Positions 5,329-28,278 of a stretch of DNA of 64,000 bases are shown piece by piece. The stretch lies in contig NZ_NFUR01000003.1 of assembly GCF_002127225.1 (NCBI RefSeq), positions 372,001 to 436,000 of the forward strand. Reading direction: 5' to 3'. A program made the translations under genes and the position numbers. The DNA comes from Sphingomonas sp. IBVSS2. GTDB taxonomy: Bacteria > Pseudomonadota > Alphaproteobacteria > Sphingomonadales > Sphingomonadaceae. Numbering within the stretch: the stretch's first letter is position 1; every line of letters begins with the position of its first letter. The notes under the pieces were generated by a model, which did no database searches, was not told the origin of the DNA, and saw only the letters and a program-made list of their open reading frames with translations.

Positions 5329-5334
5329 CCGCCC

Positions 5335-9918: not shown

Positions 9919-10887
9919 TCAGTGCTTTCGTAGCTCATCAATGCTTTTATGAGTGTCCGGCGTGGGGGCAGCCATTTTGCGTTTCCCGCGCAGCACATCG
10001 ATTTCATCCTGCCGGCGTCGCAGATAATATTCGCGCGCTGTGACATAGGGTTGTGCCTGTGCTCGTTGCTCGCGAAGATCTGCGTCAAACCGGATGCGCC
10101 GGTCGAGCGCCCGCGGCACACCGGTCCCTGCGCTGTAGGCCAATCGGTTAAACGGAACGCCGATGGCGGTGGGCAGCACCATGCGATCCATCAGGCCGCC
10201 AATCAGGTCCCGGACTGTCGTCGGCCCAACCACTGGCAAAAACAGAAATGCTCCGGGCTTCACGCCATAGAATCCGAAGCTATCGGCGAACCCATTGGGA
10301 CGATGCGGGAGGCGGAACGGTTTTCGCTTGGCAATATCGAATAGGCCCGCCGCGCCAAGCGTCGTGTTGACCGCGAAGCGGCCGACGGTCTCGGCGGCCT
10401 TGCCGACCTTGTGCTGGATCAGGAAATTCAAAAAAACGACAGGTTCGTCGAGATTGGCGAACGCGTTGTGCAGGCCATCACGTATTGGTCCAGGGACGAT
10501 ATGCCGATAGCCCATGGCCACTGGCGCCACCACGGCATGATCGACAGACTGCGTGATTTCAAACGACTTGAGGTTGGCTGGTTCCAGCGGGTCGACGTGG
10601 GCTGAGCGCGACGAGGCTGTGACGACAATTGTGTCTTTTGCGTCCGCTGTACCATTCTGGCTTGATGCGTCCTGGCTTGCTGGGCCTTCTTGCTCAACGG
10701 GAGACTGTGGGGCCGATGGCGCCAGTTCGAACGCCGGTGGCGTGATGGCGGGCCGTGTCGCGTCTGATGCGGGGCGCGCTACGGCCGAATTTGGCTGCGC
10801 CGGCACCGACGCGACTTGATCTGGTCCGAGAAATGGCGGCGGTGAAGAAACTTCGCTCGCGACCGAGGCAAGGAGCAAGCACAGCAT
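9919..10887 (-). CDS. mlaA: MlaA (VacJ)-like lipoprotein with long Pro-rich N-terminal extension
   Basis: MlaA sits in the outer membrane and passes mislocalised phospholipids to the Mla retrograde pathway. The C-terminal two thirds match the family: DPLEPANLKSFEITQSVDHAV, NFLIQHKVGKAAETVGRFAVNTTLG and GVKPGAFLFLPVVGPTTVRD in separate blocks. The N-terminal 90 residues are a Pro/Ala/Ser-rich linker with a TonB-box-like stretch DTIVVTASSR. The lipobox is weak (MLCLLLASVA). The ATG lies one base beyond the stop of the upstream TolC gene, so it is the last gene of the metal-efflux operon, an unusual place for mlaA. No other mla gene is nearby. Confidence 0.82.
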   Translation of the reverse strand: MLCLLLASVASEVSSPPPFLGPDQVASVPAQPNSAVARPASDATRPAITPPAFELAPSAPQSPVEQEGPASQDASSQNGTADAKDTIVVTASSRSAHVDPLEPANLKSFEITQSVDHAVVAPVAMGYRHIVPGPIRDGLHNAFANLDEPVVFLNFLIQHKVGKAAETVGRFAVNTTLGAAGLFDIAKRKPFRLPHRPNGFADSFGFYGVKPGAFLFLPVVGPTTVRDLIGGLMDRMVLPTAIGVPFNRLAYSAGTGVPRALDRRIRFDADLREQRAQAQPYVTAREYYLRRRQDEIDVLRGKRKMAAPTPDTHKSIDELRKH

Positions 10888-10888
10888 C

Positions 10889-12127
10889 TTATCTTTTCTC
10901 CTCGTCCGGCGCCCAGATGCTGTGTGAATCGATCTGAAGCTTCAGGAGCGCCCGGTCGGCTTCCGACCGGGCATCAATTTCCAGGCGGTGCGCCTCCTGC
11001 GCCTGCCGCCGGACATAAAGAAGATCGGTCAGATCGATCTGGCCGAGTTGATATCCTCGCGCCATCTTGGCGGCCGCGTCGGCGGCGCTGTGCATCGATA
11101 GATCGGCGTTGCGCCAGGCATCGTAGCGGGTGCGGGCGTTGGAAAGGTCCGCATTGGCGATGGCCTGGATATTGCGTTGTATCGCCGCCAATTCCATGCG
11201 CGCGGCGTTGGCCTCGGCTGAGGCTTGATCGGCCGCCGCCCGGCGATAGCCACCGCCGAGGGGGATCGAGGCGACGATACCCGCGCCCTTTTCCATTCCG
11301 CCGCGCTCGCTGAACAAACGGACTCCGAACGATGGATCAGCGATACGATCCGCCCGAACCCGCTGAGCCGTGACGCCGAGGCGCTGCGCTTCCTTGTCCG
11401 CTGCACGAATCTCGTGGCTGCGCTCGATCACGAGATCGCGCATCGTCTCCAGCCCCACATCGGGAAGCGTCGGGGACGCAAGTTCCGGGGGCTCGGATGG
11501 CAAGGGAATGTCGGGGAAGGCCGCGGCGAGGGTGACACGCGCCTGCTCGCGGATAGAGAGGGACGATGCCGCCTGTGCGCGGGCCTGAGCGAGCGCTGCT
11601 TGCGCCTGGTCAAGATCGAGCTGGGCGGCGTCACGCAGCGCGACTCGCCGTTTCACCGCCGCGATCGATTCTTCCAGCCCCCTGACCGTGTCCATATCGT
11701 TTCGATAATGAGTCCCGGCAGTCAGCCAGTCGTGCCAGAGGCTCGACAGGATCAGCGCCGTCTGGTGACGGACATTCTCCATCTGGTTCTCGGCCACCTC
11801 GATCCCCAGGGCGCCAGCCTTGCGGTCCAGCGCGGCCTTGCCCGGCAGGCGGAAAGGGCGGCTGATCGTCGTGTCGAACTCGTCGAAACCGCCCTCGCGA
11901 TCCACCGTGCGGCGGATGTAGCTACCGCTCACCGTCACTTCATGCGGGCCTTTGCGAAGCATGTCGCCGCGCGCTCGCGCAGCCTCGATACGGGCAAGCG
12001 CGGCGGCAACGCTGGGATGACTGTCCAGCGCCTCGTTGACCTTCTCTGCCGGCGGCAGGTCGGCGCGCTGGGCGAGCGCAGGCGTTGCGCCAAATGCAAG
12101 GCAACAGGCAAAGGCGACGACCCGCAT
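10889..12127 (-). CDS. TolC-family outer-membrane channel of a heavy-metal RND efflux system (CzcC/CusC-like)
   Basis: A 412-residue outer-membrane efflux protein. A signal peptide (MRVVAFACCLAFGATPALAQ) precedes the repeated long helices of the family. The first repeat begins EKVNEALDSHPSVAAALARIEAARARG (in two halves) and the second contains RRAAADQASAEANAARMELA. The ATG at 12127 overlaps the upstream DUF3240 stop (ATGA) and gives a clean signal peptide; an in-frame start 14 codons upstream is less likely. Together with the adaptor and pump encoded upstream it completes a tripartite exporter across both membranes. Confidence 0.88.
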   Translation of the reverse strand: MRVVAFACCLAFGATPALAQRADLPPAEKVNEALDSHPSVAAALARIEAARARGDMLRKGPHEVTVSGSYIRRTVDREGGFDEFDTTISRPFRLPGKAALDRKAGALGIEVAENQMENVRHQTALILSSLWHDWLTAGTHYRNDMDTVRGLEESIAAVKRRVALRDAAQLDLDQAQAALAQARAQAASSLSIREQARVTLAAAFPDIPLPSEPPELASPTLPDVGLETMRDLVIERSHEIRAADKEAQRLGVTAQRVRADRIADPSFGVRLFSERGGMEKGAGIVASIPLGGGYRRAAADQASAEANAARMELAAIQRNIQAIANADLSNARTRYDAWRNADLSMHSAADAAAKMARGYQLGQIDLTDLLYVRRQAQEAHRLEIDARSEADRALLKLQIDSHSIWAPDEEKR

Positions 12128-12426
12128 CAGGCGATCCTTCCCTGATCGACGAGCGGAACGGTTCGCCAACGCACTGGCAGATCGTGCCGTGCTTCTTTCA
12201 CTGCGCGAAGCAAATCCGGCACCATGTCCTCACCGACGATCAGTTCGATAGTCGTGCGCTTGAGTTCGCCGGAGACCCGCTCTGCTGTCCCGGCATCGTC
12301 GAAGTCACGACCACGCACATTCTCCGCCCGGATATGAATCGGCGCCCGGGAGATCGCGCGGATGGAGTCGATTAGCCCTTCGGCGTCCGGGACAGCGCAA
12401 TGCAGGGTGAACAGGAGATCAGGCAT
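12127..12426 (-). CDS. DUF3240 family protein of a metal-efflux operon
   Basis: A 99-residue soluble protein. It resembles small ferredoxin-like or PII-like proteins (HCAVPDAEGLIDSIRA; RTTIELIVGEDMVPDLLRAV). DUF3240 members often lie between CzcA-type pump genes and the outer-membrane channel gene, as here. A role in metal sensing or pump tuning is suggested by that context only. The start overlaps the pump stop by 8 bases and the stop overlaps the TolC start, so translation is coupled. Confidence 0.75.
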   Translation of the reverse strand: MPDLLFTLHCAVPDAEGLIDSIRAISRAPIHIRAENVRGRDFDDAGTAERVSGELKRTTIELIVGEDMVPDLLRAVKEARHDLPVRWRTVPLVDQGRIA

Positions 12427-15400
12427 TTTCGGGTTCTCCCGCGCTTTCGCCGAAGCGCTCGAACAGGATCGGCAGCAGGATCAGCGTCAGCAGGGTGGAA
12501 GTGATGAGGCCGCCGATGACGACGATGGCGAGCGGACGCTGGATCTCCGATCCAGGCCCGCTGGCGAACAAGAGCGGCACCAGGCCGAAGGCGGTGATGC
12601 TGGCGGTCATCAGCACGGGCCGCAGTCGCCGCTGCGCGCCGAGCCGTACCGCCTCGGCCATGCCTAGCCCTTCCGTGCGGAGCTGCCGGAAATAGGCGAC
12701 GAGCACCAGCCCGTTGAGCACCGCGATGCCGAGTAGGGCGATGAATCCGACCGAAGCAGGCACGGAGAGATATTCGCCCGACACCCAGAGCGAGACCAGA
12801 CCACCGACCATGGCGAAGGGGATATTGGCGAGGATCAGCAGCGACGCGCGGAGCGAGCGCAGTGTCGCCAACAGCACGAGGAAGATCAGTCCCAGCGCGA
12901 TCGGGATCACCGTCATCAGCCGTGCCGAGGCGCGCTGCTGATTTTCGAACTGGCCGCCCCAGACGATGCTGTACCCTGCCGGAAGCCGTACCTTCGTCGC
13001 CACCGCAGCCTTCGCCTCATCGACATAGCCGACCAGATCGCGCCCGGAGACGAATGCCTGCACCAAGGCGAAGCGTGAACCATTCTCATGGTCGAGCTTG
13101 ACCGGCCCCTGCGTGCGCGCGACCCGCGCCATGTCGCTGACGCGCGCGAGCGTGCCATCAGGCGTGCGCAATTGCAGATCGGCGAAGCGCGCGGCGTCTT
13201 TCCGAAGGCTCTCATCGCCTCGGATGACGATCGGCGTCCGCTTCTGCCCTTCCGCCACGACACCCGCGCGCATCCCCTCGACCTGAGCGCGCAAGGCATC
13301 CTGCATTTGGTCGACCGGCATTCCGAACCGCCCGGCCGCTGCGCGGTCGATGTCGAGTTGAAGATAGTCCACGCTGTCGTTGGCGACCGTCAGCACTTCC
13401 GAGGCACCGCGAACGCCCGACAGCGTGTGCTGGATCTGGCCGGCGAGATCGGCAAGCGTATTGAGGTCGGGGCCGAAGATCTTGACCGCGAGATCGCCGC
13501 GCGCACCGGTCAGCATCTCTGAGACGCGCATCTCGATCGGCTGGGTGTAGCTGGGAGTGATGCCGGGAAGCCCCTCCAGCGCCTTGCGGATTTCCTCGAT
13601 CACAAAATCCTTGTTGCCGCGCCATTCGGAGCGTGGCTTCAATCGGACGAAGCTGTCGGTCTCGTTGAGGCCCATCGGATCGAGGCCGATTTCGTCCGAA
13701 CCGACGCGGGCGATCACGTCCTCGACCTCGGGCACGGCCCGGAGCGCGCGTTGCACGGCCAGATCACCGGCAACCGACTGGTCGAGGTTGATCGAAGGCA
13801 GCTTGGTGAGTTGGACGATGACCGAGCCCTCGTCCATCGTCGGCATGAAGGTCTTGCCAACCGCGCCATAGGCTATGCCAGCCAGCACCAGTCCCAGAGC
13901 AGAGAGGCCATAGACCAGCCTTTTGCGCGCGAACGCGCCGTCCAGCAGCACGCGGTAGCGCGGGCCAAGCTGGCGCATGATCCACGGCTCGCCATGGTGG
14001 CCGCTTTTGAGGCCGAAGGAGGACAGTACCGGCACCAGCGTCAGCGCCAGCAGGAGAGAGCCTGCGAGCGCGAAGACGATGGTGAGCGCGACAGGGGCGA
14101 ACAATTTGCCCTCCAACCCTTGCAATGAGAGCAACGGCAGGAACACCAGCGCGATGATGAGGATGCCGGCCGAGACCGGGACGATCACTTCGCTGGTCGC
14201 ACGAAACACATGGTTGAGCCGGGGCGTATCTCCATCGTGATCGCGGCCGAGCCGTTCGACCACATTCTCGACCACCACCACCGCGCCATCGACCAGCATC
14301 CCGATCGCGATCGCAAGCCCGCCAAGGCTCATCAGATTGGCGGAGAGGCCCATGCCGCGCATGAAGAGGAAGGTGATGAGCGCCGCCATCGGCAAGGTCG
14401 CGGCGACGATCGCAGCAGCGCGCCAGTCGCCCAGGAACAGGATCAGCAGCACGACGACGAGGACGGTCGCCTCGATCAGCGCTTCTTCGACCGTGCCCAC
14501 CGCCCGTTCGATCAGGTCGGAGCGATCGTAGAACACATTGATACGCGTGCCAGCGGGCAAGCCGCGCTCGACCTCGGCGAGGCGCGTGCGAACGCCGTCC
14601 ACCACCTGCCGGGCGTCCGCCCCGCGCAGCGCGATCACCAGCCCTTCGACCGCTTCGGCGTTGCCGTTCTTCGTCACCGCGCCATAGCGAGTGAGGCTGC
14701 CGCTGCCGACCGAGGCGACATCGCCCAGCCGTACGATGCGCCCATCACGGCTGGCGATGACGAGCGATTGCAGGTCTTCGGCATTGCGGATCGCGCCAAC
14801 CGCGCGGACGATCAGCGCTTCCTCGCCATTGGCGAGGCGTCCCGCGCCATCGTTGCGATTGCCGCTTTCGATTGCCGCACGCAGATCGGCAATCGAAAGC
14901 TTCGCGGAGGCCAACGCCACCGGATCGGGCCTCACTTCGAAGGTGCGGACATAGCCGCCGAGCGCGTTGACGTCCGCGACGCCGGGCACGGTGCGCAGCG
15001 CCGGGCGGATCGTCCAGTCGAGTAGCTCACGCTTCTGCTGGAGCGATAGCGGCCCTTCGATCGTAAACATGTAAACGTCGGAAAGCGGCGTGGAGATCGG
15101 CGCCAGACCGCCCGTCACCGATGCGGGTAGATCGCCCATTACGCCCGACAACCGCTCGGCGACCTGTTGGCGCGCCCAATAGATGTCGGTGCCATCGGTG
15201 AAATCGATGGTGATGTCGGCGATGGCGTATTTGGCCGCTGAGCGCAGGATCGCCTGATTGGGGATGCCCAGCATCTCCTGTTCGATCGGCGTGATAACGC
15301 GGCTTTCTACCTCCTCCGGCGTCATGCCGGGGGCTTTCAGGATTAGCTTCACCTGTGTCTGGGCGATGTTTGGATAGGCGTCGACCGGCAAGTTGACGAA

Positions 15401-15490
15401 GGCCCATATCCCTAGCCCTGCCGTCACAGCGGCGAGCAGCAGGACGAGCAGGCGATAGGAGAGCGCTGTGGCGACGAGCGAACGCAGCAT
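12419..15490 (-). CDS. Heavy-metal efflux RND pump, CzcA/CusA family
   Basis: A 1023-residue inner-membrane proton/metal antiporter with the usual 12 membrane segments and two large periplasmic loops. The N-terminus (LLAAVTAGLGIWAFVNLPV, DAYPNI) and DPMGLNETDSFVRLKP in the second loop place it in the HME branch. In the proton-relay helix the motif is AIGMLVDGAVVVVEN: D401 and E408 are kept, but the first Asp of the classical CzcA DFG motif is Ala395. This makes it differ from Zn/Co/Cd-type CzcA and resemble other HME classes, so the metal cannot be assigned. It is the second gene of an operon (adaptor, pump, DUF3240, TolC, MlaA). Confidence 0.93.
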   Translation of the reverse strand: MLRSLVATALSYRLLVLLLAAVTAGLGIWAFVNLPVDAYPNIAQTQVKLILKAPGMTPEEVESRVITPIEQEMLGIPNQAILRSAAKYAIADITIDFTDGTDIYWARQQVAERLSGVMGDLPASVTGGLAPISTPLSDVYMFTIEGPLSLQQKRELLDWTIRPALRTVPGVADVNALGGYVRTFEVRPDPVALASAKLSIADLRAAIESGNRNDGAGRLANGEEALIVRAVGAIRNAEDLQSLVIASRDGRIVRLGDVASVGSGSLTRYGAVTKNGNAEAVEGLVIALRGADARQVVDGVRTRLAEVERGLPAGTRINVFYDRSDLIERAVGTVEEALIEATVLVVVLLILFLGDWRAAAIVAATLPMAALITFLFMRGMGLSANLMSLGGLAIAIGMLVDGAVVVVENVVERLGRDHDGDTPRLNHVFRATSEVIVPVSAGILIIALVFLPLLSLQGLEGKLFAPVALTIVFALAGSLLLALTLVPVLSSFGLKSGHHGEPWIMRQLGPRYRVLLDGAFARKRLVYGLSALGLVLAGIAYGAVGKTFMPTMDEGSVIVQLTKLPSINLDQSVAGDLAVQRALRAVPEVEDVIARVGSDEIGLDPMGLNETDSFVRLKPRSEWRGNKDFVIEEIRKALEGLPGITPSYTQPIEMRVSEMLTGARGDLAVKIFGPDLNTLADLAGQIQHTLSGVRGASEVLTVANDSVDYLQLDIDRAAAGRFGMPVDQMQDALRAQVEGMRAGVVAEGQKRTPIVIRGDESLRKDAARFADLQLRTPDGTLARVSDMARVARTQGPVKLDHENGSRFALVQAFVSGRDLVGYVDEAKAAVATKVRLPAGYSIVWGGQFENQQRASARLMTVIPIALGLIFLVLLATLRSLRASLLILANIPFAMVGGLVSLWVSGEYLSVPASVGFIALLGIAVLNGLVLVAYFRQLRTEGLGMAEAVRLGAQRRLRPVLMTASITAFGLVPLLFASGPGSEIQRPLAIVVIGGLITSTLLTLILLPILFERFGESAGEPENA

Positions 15491-15499: not shown

Positions 15500-16609
15500 C
15501 TAGCGCGCCGCGGCGAGCGCCTTGAGCGCGCTCGTGCCGGAGGTCACCACCTGTTCACCGGGCTTTACGCCTGAGAGCAGAACGATCCGGCCGTTGCTGG
15601 CCGTTCCGCTCGTCACGGGGCGAACCGCGTAACCGCCCTGCGCTGCCACGAACACGGCCGACCTGCCGTCGATCATTGTGACGGCGGTCTCCGGCACGCT
15701 GACCGCGCCCGCCGGTGCGGGACCGGAAATCACGATGCTGGTCGCCCGGCCCGCGACGACGCCTGGCCCTGCCGGGATTTCCGCCTTGAGGCTGGCCGAG
15801 CGCGTTGCGGGATCGATCGTCGAACCGACGGCGATAATCCGGCCGGAAATGTCAGGTGGCAGATGCACGGTCATACCAAGCCGCACCTGACCGACCAGCC
15901 GTTCGGGCAGTTGCCCGATGACTTCATAGCGGTTTGCGGCATCGATCACATAAGGCGCGGTGGTGCCGTCGACCGGATTGCCTGTCTGGATGGCCGCGCT
16001 GGTCACGCGGCCCGCGATCGGCGCGGTCAGCGTATAGGAGCCGCTGCCGCCATGGCCGCCCACCATGCGCAGGATACGCGCCTTTTCCGATACGTCCGCA
16101 TTGCTCTCGGCGGCGATGGCGCGCGCCTCGTCCGCGCGGGCTGGAGCGATGATGCCCTCCCGGCTGAGCTGCGACAGGCGCGCCGCATTGGACTGCGCAA
16201 CGCCCGCACGCGCATGGGCGCGGGTGAGGTCCGAGCCGAGCGTCAGCACTTCGCGACTGGCGACGGTTGCAAGCGCCTGTCCCTGCCGCACGCTGTCGCC
16301 TTCCACCACATACGTCCGGGTGACGACACCGGGGAAGGTCGCGGCCACCGCCACGCGGGCGTTGGCTGGAGGCTGGATCACCGCTGGAATAGTGACGAGC
16401 GGGGCTTCCTCGGCAACGGTCGCGGCGGTTAGACGAATGCCCATTTGCGCCGCGCGCTTTGCATCAACGACCAACACCCCCGCGGCAGTCTGCGCTTTAT
16501 CGGCAGGCGCTTTCGCGGCGGTGGGTTCGGAATGCGGCGCAAGCCACCAAAAGGCCGCCAAAGCGAGCGGAACGGCCACGCCTGCAATCGGATAATATCG
16601 TCTGGACAT
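15500..16609 (-). CDS. RND efflux periplasmic adaptor subunit (CzcB/CusB-like)
   Basis: A 369-residue membrane-fusion protein. It has an N-terminal anchor or signal (about residues 6-25), a split biotinyl-lipoyl domain (FPGVVTRTYVVEGDSVRQGQ and LTAPIAGRVTSAAIQTGNPV), a helical hairpin between them and a beta-barrel domain. It bridges the pump and the TolC channel. There is no His-rich metal-binding extension. It is the first gene of the operon: the 64-base gap upstream contains a 17-bp CGTCAG direct-repeat box at 16632-16648, with the response regulator and kinase genes directly behind. Confidence 0.88.
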   Translation of the reverse strand: MSRRYYPIAGVAVPLALAAFWWLAPHSEPTAAKAPADKAQTAAGVLVVDAKRAAQMGIRLTAATVAEEAPLVTIPAVIQPPANARVAVAATFPGVVTRTYVVEGDSVRQGQALATVASREVLTLGSDLTRAHARAGVAQSNAARLSQLSREGIIAPARADEARAIAAESNADVSEKARILRMVGGHGGSGSYTLTAPIAGRVTSAAIQTGNPVDGTTAPYVIDAANRYEVIGQLPERLVGQVRLGMTVHLPPDISGRIIAVGSTIDPATRSASLKAEIPAGPGVVAGRATSIVISGPAPAGAVSVPETAVTMIDGRSAVFVAAQGGYAVRPVTSGTASNGRIVLLSGVKPGEQVVTSGTSALKALAAAR

Positions 16610-16631
16610 GCCATCCGGCTAGGCGGCGAGT

Positions 16632-16648
16632 CTGACGGAACCCTGACG
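16632..16648 (-). promoter_or_regulatory. Direct-repeat box, probable response-regulator site, before the RND operon
   Basis: On the minus strand the site reads CGTCAGGGTTCCGTCAG, two GTCAG half-sites 11 bp apart, the spacing typical of tandem OmpR/PhoB-family operators. It lies 22 bases before the adaptor ATG, in the only gap available for the operon promoter. The same box occurs at 19168, 19936 and 23977. Confidence 0.7.
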
Positions 16649-16673
16649 AGACAGGCGACAGGTCAATCGGCAG

Positions 16674-17690
16674 TCAGGGTTCGGGGAAGCGCAGTATCAA
16701 ATCATGGCGATCGGGATCGGTCTCGAGCGTGCCTTCGTGCGCGGCCATGATCCGCTCGACGATGGCGAGGCCAAGCCCAGCGCCGTCCTTGCTGGCATGA
16801 TCGGCGCGGCGATGGCGTTGCACGAGATTGCGTAGCCGGTCTGGCGGCAGGCCAGGCCCTTCGTCACGCACGCTGATGCTTGCACCCGGACCAACAAGCA
16901 CCTGGATGGCGCCGCCGGCCGGAGTCACCCGCACGGCGTTCTCGATGAGGTTGCGCAGCGCCGCCGAAATCGCCTCGCGCCGACCCCGCGTGACGGGCGC
17001 GTGAATGCCAGTCACGAGTTCAATGGTCTTGCCTCCGGCAATGATGGCCGGCGCGGCCGCCCCGACGACATCGCTTGCCACATCGCTCAGCGATATCTGC
17101 GCCAGCGGGATCTGGGCGACTGCATCGGCATCGATCTGCGCCAGCAGCATGAGCTGATCGATCAGCCGACGCATTGCCGCGACATCCTTTTTGAGCCGCT
17201 CCGCATCGTCATGCTCCAACCGATCGAGTTCGAGGGACAGCAAGGCGAGCGGTGTGCGCAGTTCGTGCGCGACATCGGCGGCGAAGGCTTCCTGGCGCTT
17301 CGCCGCTTCGTCGAGGCGCGCGAGCAGGTCGTTGACGGCGCTAGTGAAAGGCAGCGCTTCGGTAGGCATCTGCGAATTGTCGATACGGAAGCCGCGCTCA
17401 TGGCCTTGCACCGCCTCGATCTCCGCCGCTACCTCTTCGAGCGGTCGGAATGCCTGGCGGATCACGCGAAGCACAAGCACGGTAACGGGGATCATCAGAA
17501 TCGCCACCGGCAGCGCAACATGCTCAAGCATTTCGCGGCTGGCGCGCGCCATCGCCGCTTGCGCATCGAGATGGGCGAAGGTGAAACTGTAGAAGAAGAC
17601 GACAGCAGCCAGCAGCAGGAAGGTGCCGACCAGACCGATCAGGCCCAGGCCGCGTTTGAGGCGTCGCGATACGGATCGGCGATCGGTCAC
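16674..17690 (-). CDS. Two-component sensor histidine kinase
   Basis: A 338-residue membrane kinase partnered with the response regulator it overlaps (GTGA; GTG start at 17690). Two membrane helices (about residues 14-38 and 57-77) enclose a periplasmic loop of only some 20 residues, so it has no room for a folded sensor domain. A HAMP-like linker precedes the dimerisation H-box AHELRTPLALL with His142. The ATPase part carries NLIENAVRVTP, DEGPGLPP and GAGLGLAIV, all intact. Location suggests sensing of metal or envelope stress; the very short loop suggests that sensing occurs in or at the membrane. Confidence 0.92.
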   Translation of the reverse strand: MTDRRSVSRRLKRGLGLIGLVGTFLLLAAVVFFYSFTFAHLDAQAAMARASREMLEHVALPVAILMIPVTVLVLRVIRQAFRPLEEVAAEIEAVQGHERGFRIDNSQMPTEALPFTSAVNDLLARLDEAAKRQEAFAADVAHELRTPLALLSLELDRLEHDDAERLKKDVAAMRRLIDQLMLLAQIDADAVAQIPLAQISLSDVASDVVGAAAPAIIAGGKTIELVTGIHAPVTRGRREAISAALRNLIENAVRVTPAGGAIQVLVGPGASISVRDEGPGLPPDRLRNLVQRHRRADHASKDGAGLGLAIVERIMAAHEGTLETDPDRHDLILRFPEP

Positions 17691-18364
17691 GCGCCATTGT
17701 CCTTCAGCATATAGCCAACGCCTCGAACGGTATGGAGCGCGCCGGTGACGTGAGCATCCTCCAGCTTGCGCCGCACCCGCGAGATCGTGGCCTCGATAGC
17801 ATTGGGCGTCACAGGATCGCTGAAACTATAAAGGGCATTCTCAATCACGGCGCGATGCACGACCGTTCCCGCGTGCCGCATCAACAATTCCAGCAGATCG
17901 GCTTCGCGGCGCGACAGATCGATCTCCTGATCGCCAGCGCGGGCGGTGCGGTTGGCGACGTCGAAATATAGTCGTCCTACCTCGATCACCGGCTGTATCC
18001 GCACGCCGGGGCGACGTAGCAGCGCGCGGATGCGCGCTGCAAGTTCATCGATCTCGACCGGCTTCACGAGATAGTCATCCGCTCCGGCATCGAGGCCCGT
18101 GATGCGATCCTCCAATGCCCCGCGCGCGGTCAGCATGATCGCGGGCGGCATCTCGTGATATTTTCGGCGGCTCGTAAGCCAGTCGGTTCCGTCGCCATCG
18201 GGTAGCCCAAGGTCGAGCACGATCGCGTCATAGGTTGCGCCGCCCATCGCATCCTCGGCCGCTGCAAGGCTATGGGCGACATCACACACGAAGTTCCGGC
18301 GCTGGAGGCCGTCTGCGACCAGCGCTGCCATTCGCGCATTATCTTCGATGACGAGAAGACGCAT
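17687..18364 (-). CDS. OmpR-family response regulator
   Basis: A 225-residue regulator. The receiver domain has the acidic pair ED at residues 7-8, the phospho-acceptor Asp51 (VLDLGLPDGDG) and LVKPVEIDELAARI. A C-terminal winged helix follows, with EATISRVRRKLEDA and VRGVGYML. It is the best candidate to bind the four 17-bp GTCAG direct repeats found in this cargo block, because that arrangement fits OmpR-family tandem binding and one copy lies before the neighbouring RND operon. No full box lies directly before this gene, although a single CCGTCAG occurs in its upstream gap at about 18427. Confidence 0.93.
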   Translation of the reverse strand: MRLLVIEDNARMAALVADGLQRRNFVCDVAHSLAAAEDAMGGATYDAIVLDLGLPDGDGTDWLTSRRKYHEMPPAIMLTARGALEDRITGLDAGADDYLVKPVEIDELAARIRALLRRPGVRIQPVIEVGRLYFDVANRTARAGDQEIDLSRREADLLELLMRHAGTVVHRAVIENALYSFSDPVTPNAIEATISRVRRKLEDAHVTGALHTVRGVGYMLKDNGA

Positions 18365-18438
18365 GAATCACTGGAACCTTCGAGGGAGATGATGATCGCT
18401 GGCCATGATCCGTTCTAGCAGGGGGCCGTCAGAAGTCT

Positions 18439-19128
18439 TCAATCCTTGTCCTCGTGATGTTCATGGGCGCCATCGCGCATATGCGGTGTGAACGCGGTCG
18501 GCTCGCTCCGAAGGATCAGGATCACCGCCAGGATGATGGTGGCGCTGCCGACCAGCAGCGCAAGTGCTCCGGGCGCCCGCGCGTCACGAGTATCAGGATG
18601 AAGACCGGCTCTCTTGCGGCCGGTGACCATCGCGCGAACCAGATTTTCACGAGTGAGAAACGACATCAGGACAACGGCGCCGACATGGAGGGCGACGAGC
18701 GCCAGCAAGCCATAGGCAAGCGTTTCGTGGAAATCCTTGTCGAGCTTGTGCGCCGCGACGCTAACACCGCTCCAAAGGACGATTCCGGTCAGGCCAAGCA
18801 GGGCGAGGACGGCGATCGCTCCGAGCGGATTGTGTCCGACGGAGCGTTCCGGACGGCCGGCGAACAGCTCGCGCACATGCGAGCCGATCGCCGTCGGTTT
18901 GATGAAACGCGCAAAGCGGGCATGTTCGCCGCCGACCAGGCCCCAGACCAAGCGAAACGCCAGCAGCACAGCGGCGCACCATCCTGCCACCATATGCCAA
19001 CTGGCGATCGGGCTGTCGTCTTCGGACGATAGAAAAGCCACCAGAATGGCCAGAACGAGCAGCCAATGGAACAATCGCAGCGGCGCGTCCCAGACCTTCA
19101 ACGTGTCCGCCTGAGCGAGATTTGTCAT
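18439..19128 (-). CDS. b561-type di-heme cytochrome (cytochrome b/b6 domain, Ni/Fe-hydrogenase type)
   Basis: A 229-residue inner-membrane cytochrome with four main membrane helices. Candidate heme ligands include the His in RLFHWLLV (helix 1), SWHMVAGW (helix 2), and the histidines around KDFHETLAYGLLALVALHVG. Such proteins pass electrons from quinol to periplasmic partners or protect against oxidative stress. The C-terminus is His-rich (HMRDGAHEHHEDKD), which could bind metal. It has its own GTCAG box 39 bases upstream. Its ribosome site lies in a hairpin with a TTCG loop. Confidence 0.85.
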   Translation of the reverse strand: MTNLAQADTLKVWDAPLRLFHWLLVLAILVAFLSSEDDSPIASWHMVAGWCAAVLLAFRLVWGLVGGEHARFARFIKPTAIGSHVRELFAGRPERSVGHNPLGAIAVLALLGLTGIVLWSGVSVAAHKLDKDFHETLAYGLLALVALHVGAVVLMSFLTRENLVRAMVTGRKRAGLHPDTRDARAPGALALLVGSATIILAVILILRSEPTAFTPHMRDGAHEHHEDKD

Positions 19129-19138
19129 ACAATTCTTC

Positions 19139-19154
19139 CTTCCCGAAGGAAGGG
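19139..19154 (-). promoter_or_regulatory. UUCG-loop hairpin covering the cytochrome b561 ribosome site
   Basis: The minus strand reads CCTTCC-TTCG-GGAAGG, a perfect 6-bp stem closed by C-G around a UUCG tetraloop, one of the most stable RNA loops. The 3' arm is the purine-rich ribosome-binding stretch GGAAGGAAG, which ends 6 bases before the ATG at 19128. The geometry could throttle translation. This is a sequence-based structural inference only. Confidence 0.5.
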
Positions 19155-19167
19155 CTAGGCAGATTGT

Positions 19168-19184
19168 CTGACCGAATCCTGACG
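19168..19184 (-). promoter_or_regulatory. Direct-repeat box before the cytochrome b561 gene
   Basis: The minus strand reads CGTCAGGATTCGGTCAG, differing from the RND-operon copy at two positions inside the spacer region but keeping both GTCAG half-sites. It starts 39 bases before the cytochrome ATG. A further CTAGCC stretch downstream is shared with the RND-operon copy at the same offset. Confidence 0.68.
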
Positions 19185-19195
19185 AGAACGAGGGG

Positions 19196-19897
19196 CTATA
19201 CGACCGTCCCGAACAGCCGCCCGATCCCTGCTGTTGCCGCCATGGCGAGCGCCCCCCAGAATGTCACCCGCAAGACCGAGCGCACCGGCTGCGCGCCACC
19301 GGCCCATGCGCCGAGCGTACCGAGCAGTATGAGGAACAGCAATGTCGCGGCGATCTCGATCGGCACGAGACTGGCGCGCGGCGCGACAGCGACCAGTGCC
19401 AGCGGCATGAGCGCGCCTGTACTGAAGGTCGCCGCGGAGGTGAGCGCCGCCTGGAGTGGACGGGCGGTCACGACTTCGGAAATGCCAAGTTCATCGCGCG
19501 CATGGGCGCCCAGCGCGTCGCTGGCCATAAGCTGATCAGCGACGCGAAGCGCCAAGTCCTTGTCGAGCCCGCGCGCCACGTAAATCTCGGCCAGTTCATT
19601 GCGCTCAAGGTCTGGTTGACCGGCCAACTCGCCGCCTTCTCGGGCGAGATCGGCTTTCTCCGTATCGGCCTGCGAACTCACCGACACATATTCCCCGGCG
19701 GCCATGGACATCGCGCCTGCGACCAGCGCTGCTGCGCCAGCCACCAATATCCCCGACTTTTCGGCGCCTGAAGCGGCAACGCCGACGATCAGGCTGGCCG
19801 TCGACACGATCCCGTCGTTGGCGCCGAGTACAGCGGCACGCAACCAACCGATGCGTGACACCGCATGACGCTCAGGATGGGTTCGCAATCTGCTCAT
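19196..19897 (-). CDS. VIT1/CCC1-family iron/manganese transporter
   Basis: A 233-residue membrane protein. RAAVLGANDGIVSTASLIVGVAASG (in part) is the signature first helix of VIT/CCC1 proteins, which move Fe2+ or Mn2+ out of the cytosol. AAGEYVSVSSQADTEKADL follows, then an amphipathic region and three C-terminal helices. The ATG at 19897 is chosen because it matches the family start, MSRLRTHPERHA, and has GAGG 7 bases upstream; a longer in-frame start at 19960 would run through the regulatory box. The GTCAG box lies 38 bases upstream. Confidence 0.88.
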   Translation of the reverse strand: MSRLRTHPERHAVSRIGWLRAAVLGANDGIVSTASLIVGVAASGAEKSGILVAGAAALVAGAMSMAAGEYVSVSSQADTEKADLAREGGELAGQPDLERNELAEIYVARGLDKDLALRVADQLMASDALGAHARDELGISEVVTARPLQAALTSAATFSTGALMPLALVAVAPRASLVPIEIAATLLFLILLGTLGAWAGGAQPVRSVLRVTFWGALAMAATAGIGRLFGTVV

Positions 19898-19935
19898 AAT
19901 GTCCTCGCAAAGCATAGGGTGGTTGTCAGCCTTTT

Positions 19936-19952
19936 CTGACGAAACCCTGACG
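19936..19952 (-). promoter_or_regulatory. Direct-repeat box before the VIT transporter gene
   Basis: The minus strand reads CGTCAGGGTTTCGTCAG, one base different from the copies at 16632 and 23977. It lies 38 bases before the VIT start. The stretch from box to start codon is partly duplicated at 23938-23993 with identical spacing. Confidence 0.7.
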
Positions 19953-20095
19953 GCCGGCATCGCGCACTGGCATGGATGATATAGACCGCCGGCGCGGCAG
20001 CCCTGGCCGCCATCTCACCGGGGCCGCGGCTCTCGTTTGACTGGCGCTGGGAAGTGCGCGCGCATGGACCAACCCCTCCGACGTGGTGCATTGTG

Positions 20096-21331
20096 TCAGC
20101 CAACAAAGACCGTCAGCCATGCCGCGCCGATGATCAGTAACTGGGCTGGAATGACACGGGCGGCAAAGGCGCGCGTTCCCACCGTTGCGGAAAAGAAAAT
20201 CTTGGCGAGGGTACTGGTGGTGCAGGCGGTCAGGATAGGAAGGATGGCTTGCGGCGCGGCCATCGTGCCGTCGGCGACCTGTGCCGCTAATGAAATCACC
20301 GCGGCATGAACGTCCAGCACCCCGCCGATCGCGGCTACGGCGATAAGCCCAGCATCCCCGAACCAGGCTCTGAGGGCCGCTGCGGACATCAGCATGATCG
20401 CCACCGTGGCGGCAAAGGTCAGTGCCATCAGCAGATTGAAGGACCTGCTCATTCTCGGCGGTTCAGCCGTAACCTCGCGCCAGGCCGCGAGGGTCAACCA
20501 TCCGCCCGACAAAAGTGCGGCCAGTCCGGCTGCGCCCACCGGCAGGATGGTAGCAAGAAAGGTACGATGGTCCGTTGCCTCGATCACCACGGCCATCTGC
20601 GCATAATTGGCGACGGTCGATAGAACCGCCGCTGCCGCACCCGCCGCGGCGGAGGCGGGATTGGCGCGAACCCAGGCACCCATGGCCCCGATAGTTGCCG
20701 AGCTGGAAACGAGCCCCGAGATGAGGCCTAGTGCGGGCACCCCCAGGCGCGCACCCAATAGCCGCGTCGCCACCTGGCCCAGCGCGTTGATCCCGAGGAT
20801 CATGACAACGACCATCCAGATCGAATGCGGATTGAGCGCGTCGAATGGCCCCATCTGCCGGTCCGGCAACATCGGCAGCACGATCAGGGTGGCGCCGGCG
20901 ATCAGCAGGATATCCGCAATCTCGTCCGCGCTGATCGTCTGTCCGACGAAGCGATGGAGCGGATCGCGGGCTGCCAGCACGATCGCGATCAGCACCGCAA
21001 GAGCCCCCGCCAGCAACGGCGCAGTTACGGCAAGCGCCCCAAGCAGCGTAGTGGCGACGAGGCTAACTTCCGTGGTGATGCCGGGGTCGGTTGTATTGCG
21101 CCTGCGCCAACTGCTCAGCAGGGCCAGCGCGGTCATGCACAGCATCACGATCGCGATCATCCACTGCTGCGGCATCAGAGCTGCACCACAGCCCAGTAAG
21201 GCAGCGATCGTGAAGGTGCGCAGCCCCGCTGCGGCCGGACGGTGGACCTTGCGCCGCTCGCGCTCCGCTCCGATCAACAGGCCGATGCCCAGCGCAACCG
21301 GGAGGTGGTGAATGAGGCCGACGTCGTCCAT
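20096..21331 (-). CDS. MgtC/SapB-type DUF4010 membrane protein
   Basis: A 411-residue polytopic membrane protein. The N-terminal part, GIGLLIGAERERRK then AAAGLRTFTIAALLGCGAAL, is the MgtC/SapB signature including the conserved GAERE. The rest, with GLISGLVSSSATIGAMGAW and a multi-helix C-terminus, is DUF4010. Function is unknown; MgtC relatives are tied to Mg2+ limitation and membrane potential. It lies 234 bases upstream of the VIT gene start and in the same direction. No GTCAG box precedes it. The 178-base gap before it, down from katG, holds nothing I can interpret. Confidence 0.85.
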   Translation of the reverse strand: MDDVGLIHHLPVALGIGLLIGAERERRKVHRPAAAGLRTFTIAALLGCGAALMPQQWMIAIVMLCMTALALLSSWRRRNTTDPGITTEVSLVATTLLGALAVTAPLLAGALAVLIAIVLAARDPLHRFVGQTISADEIADILLIAGATLIVLPMLPDRQMGPFDALNPHSIWMVVVMILGINALGQVATRLLGARLGVPALGLISGLVSSSATIGAMGAWVRANPASAAAGAAAAVLSTVANYAQMAVVIEATDHRTFLATILPVGAAGLAALLSGGWLTLAAWREVTAEPPRMSRSFNLLMALTFAATVAIMLMSAAALRAWFGDAGLIAVAAIGGVLDVHAAVISLAAQVADGTMAAPQAILPILTACTTSTLAKIFFSATVGTRAFAARVIPAQLLIIGAAWLTVFVG

Positions 21332-21510
21332 GGACAGGGTTCTGTGCTCCTACGCGCCGAGCTAGAGGCAAGCACTTCAAAACCCCTCGCCACGATGCAC
21401 TGACAATCAACTCGGACCACTCGGTGGCGGCTGGCCACGGGAGGATCGGGAGCGGCGGCGCCAGGGGGCAACGCCGCCGCTCCACGTCCAACCAATAGCT
21501 AGAAGGTCGC

Positions 21511-23712
21511 CTAACTACGGTCGGCGTTCATGACCTTGGTCCAGGCCCGCACGAAGTCGTCCACAAACTTCTGCTTCGCATCGTCCGAGGCATAGACTTC
21601 GGACACCGCGCGCAGCTCTGAATTGGAGCCGAACACGAGATCCACCGGGGTGGCCGTCCACTTCGCGGCGCCGGACGCGCGGTCCTTGCCTTCGTAGAGC
21701 CCCGGCGAGCCGACCGACTTCACCCAGACCGTGTTCATCGACAGCAGGTTGACAAAGAAGTCGTTGGACAGGTTGCCGGGGCGAGCGGTGAAGACACCAT
21801 GTCGAGTGTTTCCGGCATTGGCGCCGAGCGAGCGCATACCACCGACGAGCACCGTCATTTCGGCGACCGTCAGGCCAAGGCTATCGGCCTTGTCGACCAG
21901 CGATTCAGCCGGGCCGAGATCGGCCCTAGCCGAATAGTAGTTGCGGAATCCATCGGCCTTCGGTTCGAGGAAGGCGAAGGAGGCAACGTCGGTCTGTGTC
22001 TGCAATGCATCGACCCGGCCCGGCGTGAAGGGGACCGAAACCCGCTGTCCTGCCCGATCCGCCGCCTGCTCGACAGCGGTGTTCCCGCCCAGCACGATGA
22101 GATCAGCCAGCGACACTTGCTTACCGTCCTTGCGGCCCTTGATGAAGTCCGCCTGGATGCGCGTGTAAGCCGCCAGCACCTTCTTCAGCTCTGCCGGATC
22201 GTTGACCACCCAATTGCGTTGCGGGTCGAGGCCGACGCGAGCGCCATTGGCGCCACCGCGGCCATCTGTGTCCCGGTAGGTCGAGGCCGAGGCCCAAGCC
22301 GCACGCACCAGTTCGCCGGTGGAGAGGCCGGAAGCGACGATCTTGGCCTTGAGCTGCGCGACGTCGTTGTTGTCGATCATCGCATAGTCAGCCTTGGGCA
22401 GCGGGTCTTGCCAGACGAAGGTCTGGTTCGGGACGTCCTTTCCGAGATAGCGGGTCTGCGGCCCGACGTCGCGGTGGGTCAGCTTGAACCAGGCGCGAGC
22501 GAAGGCGACGGCGAATTCTTCCGGATGCTCGCGCCAGCGCGAGGTGATCTTCCGGAAGCCCGGATCTTCCCGCATCGCGATGTCGGTGGTGAACATGATC
22601 GGCGCGTGCGTTTTGCCCGCGACATGGGCGTCGGGCACCAGGGCCGTCGCTGCCGGGTCGCTGGGCACCCACTGCACCGCGCCGGCGGGGCTCTTGGTCT
22701 TCACCCAGGTGAAGCCGTAGAGGTTGTCGAGATACTGCGTGGTGAAGGTGATCGGATTGGCCGACCATGCGCCTTCCAGGCCGCTGGAGACCGTATCTTC
22801 CGCATTGCCCTTACCGCATTTGTTGGCCCAGCCGAGGCCCTGCTGTTCGATCGGCGCGACGCCGGGATCGCCGCCGACGCAATCATCGGGTTTATGCGCG
22901 CCATGCGCTTTGCCGAAGGTATGGCCACCAGCGATCAGCGCGGCGGTTTCCTCGTCGCTCATTGCCATGGCTCCGAAGGCACGGCGAATATCAGCCGCCG
23001 CCGCCAACGGATCGGGATTACCGCTCGGACCTTCGGGATTGACGTAGATAAGACCCATCTGTGTCGCTGCCAGCGGTCCGCGAAGATTACCCTTCTCGTC
23101 CCGCCGTTCGTCCATCATCATCTTGGTTTCCGGTCCCCAGAAGACGAGGTCCGGCTGCCAGGCATCGACGCGGCCGCCCGCGAAGCCGATGGTCTTGAAG
23201 CCCATATCCTCTAGGGCGACGTTGCCGGTCAGAACCATCAGGTCGCCCCAGGAGAGCTTGCGGCCATATTTCTGCTTGATCGGCCAGATTAGCCGGCGCG
23301 CCTTGTCGAGGCTCACATTGTCGGGCCAGCTATTCAGCGGCTCGAAACGCTGCTCGCCACCACCGGCGCCGCCGCGGCCGTCCCCGGTGCGATAGGTGCC
23401 CGCACCATGCCAGGCCATGCGGATGAAGAAGGGGCCATAATGCCCATAATCCGCAGGCCACCACGGCTGCGAAGTGGTCAAAACCTTGCGGATGTCGGCT
23501 TTGACCGCATCGAGATCAAGCGAGGCGAATTCCTTCGCATAGTCATAGTCCGCACCATAGGGATTGGATTGCGCTTCGTGCTGACGCAACGACCTCAGAT
23601 CGAGGCTTTTGGGATACCATTCCTTGGCCGTCGGTGCCGCGCTTTGGGCGAAGGCGGCCGGCGAGATCGCCATGACGGCTATCGCCAATAAAGATATTGT
23701 TGTCCTACGCAT
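21511..23712 (-). CDS. katG: Exported catalase-peroxidase KatG
   Basis: A 733-residue bifunctional heme enzyme that removes hydrogen peroxide. Starting at the ATG at 23712 it has a clear signal peptide ([17 protein letters not shown]), so it should act in the periplasm, unlike the usual cytosolic KatG. Distal-site residues Arg98, Trp101 and His102 (RMAWHGAG), the Tyr of [10 protein letters not shown] and proximal His264 ([11 protein letters not shown]) are all present, as is the duplicated C-terminal domain. An open extension upstream is low-complexity and rejected; GGAGGACAT directly precedes the chosen start. A GTCAG box lies 264 bases upstream, beyond a short leader frame. Confidence 0.95.
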
Positions 23713-23938
23713 TATGTCCTCCTGTTGTGGTTGAAGAAGTGGGAGTCCCGTGGACGGTTGGGCCGCCCGTGCCGCCCGTGCCGCCCGTGCCGCACGACAG
23801 CAGGCGCCGCCATACAAAATCGGAATTAGGGGAGGGGATGACGCGACCGTTCATTGGGCCGGGGATTTCAGGTAGGCGGTCAGCGCCGCGCGATCGGCGG
23901 GTTTCGACGGACCTATGATGGGATCGCAGTTTGCTCAT
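23705..23938 (-). CDS. Possible leader ORF or VIT-gene remnant upstream of katG
   Basis: A 77-codon frame that ends 7 bases inside katG. Its first codons, [10 protein letters not shown], resemble the start of the VIT transporter (MSRLRTHPER). The preceding 56 bases, including the ribosome site GAGGACAT and a GTCAG box, match the VIT promoter region closely. The rest is unlike VIT and ends in a Gly-Thr repeat coded by tandem CCGTGCCGC-type units (about 23767-23791). It may be a translated leader coupled to katG, or a scar left when a VIT-type promoter was joined to katG. Low confidence as a functional protein. Confidence 0.35.
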
Positions 23939-23976
23939 CATGTCCTCACAAGGCGGCATGGGGATTCCAAACTTTC

Positions 23977-23993
23977 CTGACGGAACCCTGACG
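23977..23993 (-). promoter_or_regulatory. Direct-repeat box upstream of katG
   Basis: The minus strand reads CGTCAGGGTTCCGTCAG, identical to the RND-operon copy. It lies 38 bases before the leader frame at 23938, the same distance as in front of the VIT gene, and about 264 bases before katG. The 386 bases between katG and the next plus-strand gene contain only this box, the leader frame and a short tandem repeat. Confidence 0.65.
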
Positions 23994-26589: not shown

Positions 26590-27891
26590 TCAGGCCGTGG
26601 GCGGATTGCCCGGCAGGATCACCGTCACGCGCAGGCCGCCGATCGGCGACCGGCTCGCCTCGATCCGCCCGTGATGCGCCTCCACGATCGCCCGCGCGGT
26701 CGCCAGGCCCAGGCCCGAGGCCGCCGATTCGTCGGCGCGGTCCGAACTGCGGTAGAAAGGCTCGAACAGGCGCTGGGCGAGCATCACGTCGACGCCGGGG
26801 GCATTGTCGTCGATGATCAGTCGCCAGGCGTCGCGCGAACTCTCCAGGCCCAGCACGATGCGGCCGTTGCGCGGCGTGTAGCGCAGCGAATTGTCGATCA
26901 GCGCGCCGAACAGCTGCTCGATGCGCGCGCCGTCCCATTTCACGATCACCGTATATTCGGGGAGCGTGCTGGTCTCCAGCCGCACGCCCTGCGCCTCGGC
27001 GCGCTTGCGATCGGCATAGATGGCGTTGTGGATCAGCGCGCGCGGGTCGACCGAGGCGAAGGTGACGGGGAGCCGGCCGAGATCGGCGAGCGCCACCGCG
27101 TTCAGATCCTCGGCCATGTGGATCAGCCGGCGGGTATCTTCCTCGATCGCGCCGATCAGCGCGGGCGGAAGCGGCGGCTGCACTTCGCACAGCTTGATGA
27201 AATGCTCGCCCATATTCTCGGTCGGGCCCTTGAGCTCGCCCGAGATCGAGACCAGCCAGGTGCGGCGCGCGGTTTCAAGACGGCTGAACTGGCTGGCGAT
27301 GCGGCGCAGGTTGCGCATCGTCGCCACCACTTCGGCCGGTCCTTCCTCGTCGAAATAAAGGTCGAGGTCGCCGTTCACCACGTCGCGGCTCATCCGGTAG
27401 AGCTGGAGCTGCGGCCGCGACCAGCGCCGCGCGAAGACATAGGCCATCACCAGCAGCAGCACGAACAGCACCACCACGATGGCGGCCACGCCGATATACT
27501 GGGTGGCGAGCACGCGCCGGTCCTGGTCGGAAAGCTCGGGCGGGCGGACCACCCGCGCCGTCGCCACCGTACGGCCATCGACCTGCACGGGGCGCTCGGC
27601 GCGCGCGGCCAGCGAGGTGGTGGGGCCGGCGATCGCATGGCCCTGCGGATCCACGAGCAGGACGCGGCCGGCAAGCGGCCCGGGCAGGTTCGCGACCTGA
27701 TCGAGCGGGCGCCCGGCGCGGGCCGCTTCGGCAACCGTCTGGACAAAGGCGTCGAGCCGCTCGCGATCGCGCTGGGCCAGCTCGGCCTGCTGGCTCTCGT
27801 GCATCACGAATACCATGAGGCCGCCCGGCACGATCGCCGCGAGCAGCGCCTGTGCCGCCAAAGAGGAAAAAATGCCTCGAAACAAACGCAC
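26590..27891 (-). CDS. BaeS-like sensor kinase lacking the phospho-acceptor histidine
   Basis: A 433-residue protein with two membrane helices (about 10-30 and 132-154), a roughly 100-residue periplasmic domain, a HAMP segment and a kinase core. The ATPase motifs are good: LIDNSLRYTPRNG, DDNAPGV and SGLGLATARAIVEAHHG. The H-box, which should read like SHELRTPL, reads SGELKGPT: residue 218 is Gly instead of His, and Arg-Thr is Lys-Gly. It therefore cannot autophosphorylate in the normal way. No response regulator is adjacent. It could be a pseudokinase or heterodimer partner; a decaying gene is less likely given the intact length. Confidence 0.82.
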   Translation of the reverse strand: MRLFRGIFSSLAAQALLAAIVPGGLMVFVMHESQQAELAQRDRERLDAFVQTVAEAARAGRPLDQVANLPGPLAGRVLLVDPQGHAIAGPTTSLAARAERPVQVDGRTVATARVVRPPELSDQDRRVLATQYIGVAAIVVVLFVLLLVMAYVFARRWSRPQLQLYRMSRDVVNGDLDLYFDEEGPAEVVATMRNLRRIASQFSRLETARRTWLVSISGELKGPTENMGEHFIKLCEVQPPLPPALIGAIEEDTRRLIHMAEDLNAVALADLGRLPVTFASVDPRALIHNAIYADRKRAEAQGVRLETSTLPEYTVIVKWDGARIEQLFGALIDNSLRYTPRNGRIVLGLESSRDAWRLIIDDNAPGVDVMLAQRLFEPFYRSSDRADESAASGLGLATARAIVEAHHGRIEASRSPIGGLRVTVILPGNPPTA

Positions 27892-27961
27892 GCGCTCAGA
27901 ACCTCCCCACAGGCCAGCTCGCCGGCCCTAGCCCCCGACTATTACAGACGCAATTCCCCGC

Positions 27962-28174
27962 TCAATCCGGAACATCGAAGCTGTCCAGTATCTTGGCGCC
28001 CGCCATGAATACAGCAATCGGGCACAACGCGAAGAGCATCCAGCCACCCCAGCCCGGAAACTTCCCCAGATAATGGACGCCGCGTTCGGTCGCCCCACAA
28101 GCAAGACCATAGATGACCAGAAAGGCCTCGAACTTGGTCTTGATCGTGAACAGGCGACGGATGCGATAGAGCAT
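27962..28174 (-). CDS. Small conserved two-helix membrane protein
   Basis: A 70-residue protein beginning MLYRIRRLFTIKTKFEAFLV with two hydrophobic stretches (about 17-30 and 44-60) and a short polar end. Similar small proteins appear to be conserved among sphingomonads; no function is known to me. It lies 70 bases upstream of the histidine-less kinase gene on the same strand and might be transcribed with it. A second in-frame-independent ORF starting at 28202 covers the same DNA but in another frame and is rejected. Confidence 0.6.
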   Translation of the reverse strand: MLYRIRRLFTIKTKFEAFLVIYGLACGATERGVHYLGKFPGWGGWMLFALCPIAVFMAGAKILDSFDVPD

Positions 28175-28240
28175 GGGAAAGGTTAAGCAAGCGCCGGGCC
28201 AAGCGCCAAAATACGTAGTTTCGCGTTAAATTAGATAGTT

Positions 28241-28263: not shown

Positions 28264-28278
28264 CGGCCGCTGGTGGCG

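Follow-up and report, generated by a model that had tools for sequence, protein, structure and literature searches.

A GTCAG direct repeat as the predicted operator of a mobile two-component system in sphingomonads

Introduction

In promoters controlled by PhoB, the Pho box has an 11-bp period with a GTCA core and replaces the −35 element approximately 10 bp before the −10 element. A layout of two pentamers with a 6-bp spacer characterizes the BqsRS (CarRS) system of Pseudomonas aeruginosa, whose OmpR-family activator recognizes TTAAG(N)6TTAAG, with the most downstream pentamer overlapping the −35 in one dissected promoter (excerpts of PMC4682146), and whose kinase BqsS senses Fe2+ via a periplasmic RExxE motif (excerpts of PMC12666569). 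In Caulobacter crescentus, the targets of the metal-responsive UzcRS system include efflux pumps and TonB receptors, according to the accessible part of PMC8963506, and in Sphingobium an OmpR/CopS pair was among the genes induced in an RNA-seq analysis with nickel (accessible part of PMC5557971). Here we describe a related arrangement in Sphingomonas sp. IBVSS2, within a 64,000-nucleotide stretch (positions 372,001 to 436,000 of contig NZ_NFUR01000003.1) which we refer to as the window. Four copies of a 17-bp direct repeat of the form GTCAG-N6-GTCAG (the box) are located there in a block of metal- and oxidant-related genes that also encodes a response regulator and its sensor kinase. The original prediction, made from the letters of the window, considered the boxes to be a regulon of this local two-component system. 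Our results support this reading: conservation of the box, its co-occurrence with the regulator, a fixed −10 position and a linkage that survives rearrangement lead us to a probability of roughly 85% that the local system acts through the four boxes as its operators, the activator mechanism proposed below included.

The system resembles BqsRS in having an OmpR-family regulator, a predicted activator, and two pentamers with a 6-bp spacer, but the pentamer is GTCAG in place of TTAAG; the motif of the window kinase reads REMLEH. The accessible part of the BqsR report gives 432 operators at no more than two changes against four exact sites here, two counts that are not like-for-like. UzcRS, as far as the accessible part of its report goes (PMC8963506), is similar as an alphaproteobacterial metal-responsive two-component system with efflux pump targets; it differs in the site of UzcR (CATTAC-N6-TTAA) and in its extensive genome-wide binding. 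The Pho box shares with the GTCAG box the 11-bp period, the GTCA core and the place of the −35, whereas the targets found here are unrelated to phosphate.

The best solved-structure match of the regulator is PmrA/BasR (E = 2.9e-46), which is also its best NCBIfam model by score (NF007928); at 190.2 bits against a cut-off of 330, the identification as PmrA was rejected. PmrAB (BasRS) differs, moreover, in the recognition-helix region (NAIEATISRVRRKL against NTLEVHIHNLREKI), and the targets here are metal and oxidant genes. Membership of the heavy-metal regulator subfamily of CzcR/CopR type (TIGR01387, 172 bits, cut-off 279.2) and, despite the GTCA likeness, of the PhoB group (138.1 bits, cut-off 296.2) was likewise rejected. 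With CzcRS, SilRS and CopRS the locus has in common an adjoining CusA/CzcA pump, the kinase model of these systems scoring 146.6 bits, below the cut-off of 292.55. The traits of the OmpR/PhoB family (a receiver with a winged-helix Trans_reg_C domain, an adjacent kinase, and tandem half-sites approximately 11 bp apart) are present, and by analogy the system appears to work like PmrAB and BqsRS with a different half-site. The written-out box string was absent from the papers of an open-licence collection, and no description of the pair was present among the matches listed in wider searches.

Results and Discussion

Boxes in the window and in related loci

With up to three mismatches allowed, CGTCAGGGTTCCGTCAG has exactly four matches in the window, all on the minus strand (Table 1); the chance expectation is 0.12 on average, none of 100 shuffles gave four matches, and no fifth copy was found in the window at this threshold. 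The coordinates, strand and number of changes (0 to 2) agree with the original prediction, and the gene families that it assigned to the four units proved right by domain and family profile matches. It also gave a distance of 38 or 39 bases to a start codon for three copies; these values hold (39, 38 and 38), but one of the codons, ATG 23938, is a copied VIT start and not that of katG.

Table 1. Boxes, predicted promoter elements and genes of the block (window coordinates).
Feature	Position	Strand	Remarks
Box 1	16632..16648	-	Exact copy (0 changes); ahead of the RND pump operon (MFP-RND-DUF3240-TolC-MlaA), 22 bp to adaptor ATG 16609
Box 2	19168..19184	-	2 changes, neither in the pentamers; ahead of b561-regulator-kinase, 39 bp to ATG 19128
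Box 3	19936..19952	-	1 change, in the spacer; ahead of the VIT gene, 38 bp to ATG 19897
Box 4	23977..23993	-	Exact copy (0 changes); upstream of exported katG, 38 bp to ATG 23938, 264 bp to katG ATG 23712
Predicted −10, pump promoter	16616..16621	-	TAGCCG; TA 16620-16621 is the conserved YA; six bases before ATG
Predicted −10, b561-regulator-kinase promoter	19152..19157	-	TAGCCC; YA at 19156-19157
Putative copy of VIT promoter and approximately first seven VIT codons	23917..24007	-	Contains box 4; local alignment to VIT promoters
84-aa open reading frame (ORF)	23705..23959	-	Begins in the putative copied VIT leader, ends over the katG start
Catalase-peroxidase KatG	21511..23712	-	TIGR00198, 1046.9 bits; apparent signal peptide, N-terminus judged by eye from the translation
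DUF4010/MgtC membrane protein	20096..21331	-	No box ahead
VIT-family transporter (Fe/Mn by family)	19196..19897	-	PF01988; alignments of relatives begin here
Cytochrome b561	18439..19128	-	PF01292
OmpR-family response regulator, predicted box binder	17687..18364	-	Response_reg (PF00072) and Trans_reg_C (PF00486), above cut-off
Sensor histidine kinase	16674..17690	-	HisKA and HATPase_c; overlaps the regulator end; motif REMLEH
RND periplasmic adaptor (MFP)	15500..16609	-	HlyD_D23; NCBIfam TIGR01730 above cut-off
CusA/CzcA-family RND metal pump	12419..15490	-	TIGR00914, 983.7 bits, cut-off 701.45
DUF3240 protein, pump operon	12127..12426	-	PF11582
TolC-type outer membrane channel	10889..12169	-	PF02321
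MlaA lipoprotein	9919..10887	-	PF04333

Relatives were collected by a pattern-based scan of a species genome collection with the regulator, and the resulting 71 loci (L numbers; genomes have G numbers) were all scanned for the box. Exact GTCAG-N6-GTCAG was present in all 35 loci with a regulator identity of at least 59% (L029-L063) and in none of the 36 others (L064-L099). The distance between box and start codon in these loci is mostly 22-25 bp for the adaptor gene (up to 32 bp where the alignment begins late), 35-43 bp for b561, 38-44 bp for VIT, and 37-144 bp for regulator genes without an intervening b561. Three loci (L045, L046 and L050) lack b561 and have kept the box ahead of the regulator gene, and in another (L156) three pentamers at 11-bp steps precede the adaptor gene. 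Two boxes were also found in a further relative of the same genus (L161), which was outside the set defining the box.

When 54 regulators were placed in a tree, the 41 rows with a box clustered (3 changes; none of 500 shuffles gave a value as low), with several long branches; a single clean branch was not recovered in this tree, and one origin of the box-bearing regulators is likely. In eight loci (L006-L008, L010-L012, L016 and L021) boxes were present with no homologue of the block proteins nearby. Three of them (L006-L008, from genomes G133, G061 and G230), all from one other genus, share a conserved CGTCAGGATTTCGTCAG site. Two contigs labelled Candidatus Marinimicrobia (L060, L061), perhaps mis-binned, carry a sphingomonad-like module with a box before a gene with a guanylate-cyclase domain.

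Promoter geometry

In a first set of 49 distinct promoters, 43 have the dinucleotide YA (TA or CA) at an offset of exactly 10 bp downstream of the box, other offsets between 5 and 25 giving at most 14; in a wider set, 74 of 90 promoters have it (adaptor 27/29, b561 20/20, VIT 10/13, regulator 5/7, katG 0/2, unassigned 12/19). An antisense GTCAG-N6-GTCAG at the RND/DUF3240 junction of relatives (nine distinct contexts in the wider set), which lies over the DUF3240 start and has the appearance of a coding coincidence, was rejected as a box and removed before both counts. Given its position, we read the YA as the start of a −10 hexamer with the box in place of the −35. The predicted layout is of the class II type, in which the operator replaces the −35 at a fixed distance from the −10, as expected of an activator that binds at −35. 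Since box 2 stands at the head of b561-regulator-kinase, which the original prediction did not mention, autoregulation is likely, and the two-component system probably controls itself through this box.

Of 29 distinct contexts of the adaptor gene, 28 have 22 or 23 bp between box and start codon; transcription would therefore be expected to start at or next to the ATG, and the pump mRNA is predicted to be leaderless or nearly so. Such a transcript, together with the shortness of the kinase-adaptor gap, could also be taken to mean that box 1 occurs in this gap by chance and that the pump is expressed only by read-through from b561-regulator-kinase. The constancy of the offset argues against this, as does plasmid pDB-2 (L102), where kinase and adaptor are separated by three genes, with the box still 22 bp ahead of the adaptor gene, and we regard a chance origin of box 1 as extremely improbable.

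Co-occurrence of box and regulator

The association was analyzed in 249 genomes of the family, in 24 of which the regulator was called (E ≤ 1e-60). The strict pattern CGTCAG-N6-GTCAG-N10-YA was present in 56 genomes, 19 of which belong to the 24 with the regulator and 37 to the 225 in which it was not called, and each of the 19 has at least one strict match within approximately 2.1 kb of the regulator gene. Four of the remaining five (L139, L140, L142 and L143) carry an exact box without the strict flanks beside the regulator gene, which brings the genomes with an adjacent box to 23 of 24; the fifth (L141) has no box, and its regulator gene contains an internal TAG. Apart from genome G114 (discussed below), some of the strict-pattern matches in regulator-negative genomes may be real sites of other regulators.

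The same could be proposed for the window, i.e. that the boxes are operators of a regulator encoded elsewhere in the genome, to which the local system is only linked. Elsewhere in the host genome, the regulator gene has seven additional partial matches at the DNA level, possibly other OmpR-type regulators, and in the regulator-negative genome G114 (L164) VIT and b561 each keep a box, the regulator gene being cut after 27 residues, with no further module genes past the break in 19.5 kb of neighbourhood. However, the sequence of G114 before the break matches L033 at 99.99% identity, and the loss therefore looks recent. The box follows the local regulator across the 249 genomes, the sole regulator gene with an internal stop is the one without a box, and transfers of the module to other genera and to plasmids have included its boxes. 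Control by another regulator has, in our view, little probability.

Several observations weigh against the boxes being operators of the local system. The host genome (4.29 Mb in nine contigs) contains only four exact copies of GTCAG-N6-GTCAG, all inside this block, but the reversed-pattern control gave three, so that a 10-base pattern would be expected to reach this number by chance; beyond chance are the confinement of all four boxes to 7.4 kb and their near-identical spacers. A longer promoter pattern with one mismatch allowed matched two extra places in this genome, both without the spacer signature, and its control gave five. The Fisher test of the strict pattern against the regulator (p = 5.7e-10) ignores shared ancestry, the counts being uncorrected. 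G114, with two boxes and a cut regulator gene, indicates that a box alone is no proof of an acting regulator. The Roseobacter relatives (45-47% identity) have no such box, and no other 6-spaced pentamer repeat was found in the 250 bp before their regulator genes. Box 4, discussed below, lacks the consensus YA and lies far from the katG start.

A further objection concerns the constancy of the pentamers. The spacers vary by lineage (GGTTCC, GATTCG, CGCGCC, GCTGCC, GGAGCG and others) and the pentamers do not, an invariance that arises by construction, as both the box scans and the −10 counts fixed them. For this reason we ranked every pentamer repeat with spacers of 0-15 bp, without bias, in the distinct 150-bp upstream regions of each gene in 58 loci. 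GTCAG with a 6-bp spacer ranked first (adaptor 31/34, b561 19/25, VIT 12/26, regulator 7/41), and it was not found in control regions of the same length upstream of the kinase (0/40), RND pump (0/34), DUF3240 (0/25) and TolC (0/31) genes. The ranking has two weaknesses: no exact box was found within 150 bp upstream of 14/26 VIT, 6/25 b561 and 3/34 MFP genes, and conserved coding DNA also yields high repeat counts (GCGCT with a spacer of 4 in 22/34 regions before RND).

Proposed mechanism and signal

Taken together, these results lead us to propose the following mechanism, of which binding, activation, signal and leaderless translation are the parts that we infer. The kinase would detect a metal-related signal at the membrane and phosphorylate the regulator, a dimer of which would bind the two GTCAG pentamers, 11 bp apart on one helix face, in the −35 region and bring RNA polymerase to the −10 element that lies 10 bp downstream. 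The RND metal pump (from a leaderless or near-leaderless transcript) and the VIT transporter would thereby be switched on, as would the b561-regulator-kinase operon by its own regulator, which would constitute positive feedback, and the exported catalase-peroxidase through a captured copy of the VIT promoter. Conjugative elements would carry the module from one sphingomonad to another.

In the window kinase, the two membrane stretches are separated by a very short loop (as judged by eye) that ends in REMLEH. Among the 31 distinct kinase N-termini of this lineage (lineage 1; regulator identity at least 57%, loop position by eye), 29 contain the motif Exx(E/D)H, the exceptions being L046 (EMLKH) and L057, whose frame start was not recovered. 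Since box layout and loop motif resemble BqsRS, a divalent metal, perhaps Fe2+, is the first candidate for the signal.

Box 4 and the katG gene

The original prediction included exported katG in the regulon. A box is indeed located upstream of katG in the layout, but this link appears to have arisen by copying of the VIT promoter, and the consensus −10 is missing. Alignment of the sequence after box 4 with VIT promoters gave scores above the maximum of 300 shuffles for L032 (64 against 27), the VIT gene of the window (46 against 24) and L033 (30 against 27), but not for L038 (22 against 33). With the best alignment to the L032 allele, box 4 is most simply explained as part of a copied VIT promoter, copied together with some seven codons of VIT. 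In L032, a single ORF of 809 aa leads from the copied start through KatG; in the window, this frame ends over the katG start. The interval from box 4 to katG contains a G+C-rich tract of short repeats (CGGCACGGG-like).

It is conceivable that box 4 is a relic, i.e. a fragment of the VIT promoter carried there by a rearrangement, and that katG is driven by a promoter of its own. The distance of 264 bp to the katG start and the missing YA are in agreement with this, and no exact box was found in the katG stretches fetched from plasmid pIBU218 (86% nucleotide identity) and S. parapaucimobilis (74%), for which reason we also rejected the idea that the box is common to katG relatives in general. 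Box, spacing and leader are, on the other hand, unchanged across L029-L032, the ORF of L032 is in frame with katG, and in genome G128 (L143) a box lies 82 bp before an exported KatG that adjoins its own regulator-kinase pair. We therefore consider a relic somewhat unlikely, and a captured, functional promoter remains our preferred explanation. If both boxes work, katG has joined the regulon at least twice.

A second lineage and changing outputs

Regulators of a second lineage (L143, L149-L152; 49-52% identity) are associated with the same box and with kinases of 441-455 aa, in none of which (0/5) the short-loop motif Exx(E/D)H was found. This lineage suggests that the sensor can differ under the same box. 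The genes behind its boxes include those of a PepSY protein, an exported rubrerythrin, VIT and KatG, identified by Pfam for the PepSY protein of L149 and the rubrerythrin of L143 and by likeness or tblastn for the others. The boxes before the apparently exported rubrerythrin (L143, 11085, plus strand; L149, 8658, minus strand; L150, 8519, minus strand) each point away from another box, located on the PepSY/b561 side. In L144, of lineage 1, the gene behind a box encodes a di-haem cytochrome c peroxidase. An extra box precedes a ferric-reductase-like gene (Pfam on the L042 copy) in plasmids pMI2 and pDB-2, L042-L046 and L063; on the two plasmids this gene is followed by a hypothetical gene and the genes of a TonB receptor and a TonB protein. 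To judge from these predicted products, the outputs repeatedly combine the removal of periplasmic peroxide with metal transport and a b-type cytochrome, with enzymes that vary.

With metal efflux and Fe/Mn transport combined in one unit with a b-type cytochrome and the removal of peroxide in the periplasm, the regulon may serve as a coordinated defence of the envelope against oxidative damage driven by metals. A broader synthesis, which we put at slightly below even odds, would be that a previously undescribed sphingomonad pair runs a compact periplasmic metal and oxidant defence via GTCAG-N6-GTCAG, in which the code is fixed while the sensors (short-loop Exx(E/D)H kinases or those of approximately 450 aa) and the peroxide enzymes (KatG, di-haem cytochrome c peroxidase, exported rubrerythrin) are exchanged, one of them by promoter capture, with leaderless pump transcripts and with regulon and boxes travelling together on conjugative elements. 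The predicted operator assigns a DNA code to an uncharacterized metal-stress regulator of many Sphingomonadaceae, which makes its regulon predictable from sequence and the question of sensing testable in one strain with four promoters. The katG region would offer a readable case of a mobile regulon gaining a gene, with promoter, operator and first codons copied ahead of it.

Organization and mobility of the block

The block genes from KatG to MlaA are all encoded on the minus strand. The listed VIT ORF, which reaches 19960, would run over box 3. An MlaA homologue at the end of the pump operon was found only in L029-L031 among the relatives' loci compared.

The original prediction placed the block on a mobile element, and several observations support this. 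It is adjoined at 513-8242 by conjugation-type genes (TraG-like, TrbL/VirB6, CagX/VirB9 and TrbI/VirB10), which are consistent with an integrated conjugative element. From approximately 26250 to 7690, the end of the fetched loci, the block is 99.87-99.98% identical to L029-L031, and the identity to L031 falls to 90% at 26590-28613; the sharp edge of near-identity to other Sphingomonas at approximately 26250 is likely a transfer boundary. Similarly, L033 shares 99.6-99.99% identity over 18.9-20.7 kb with L034-L037, which come from four other species, and two further copies of the module are located on plasmids typed as conjugative.

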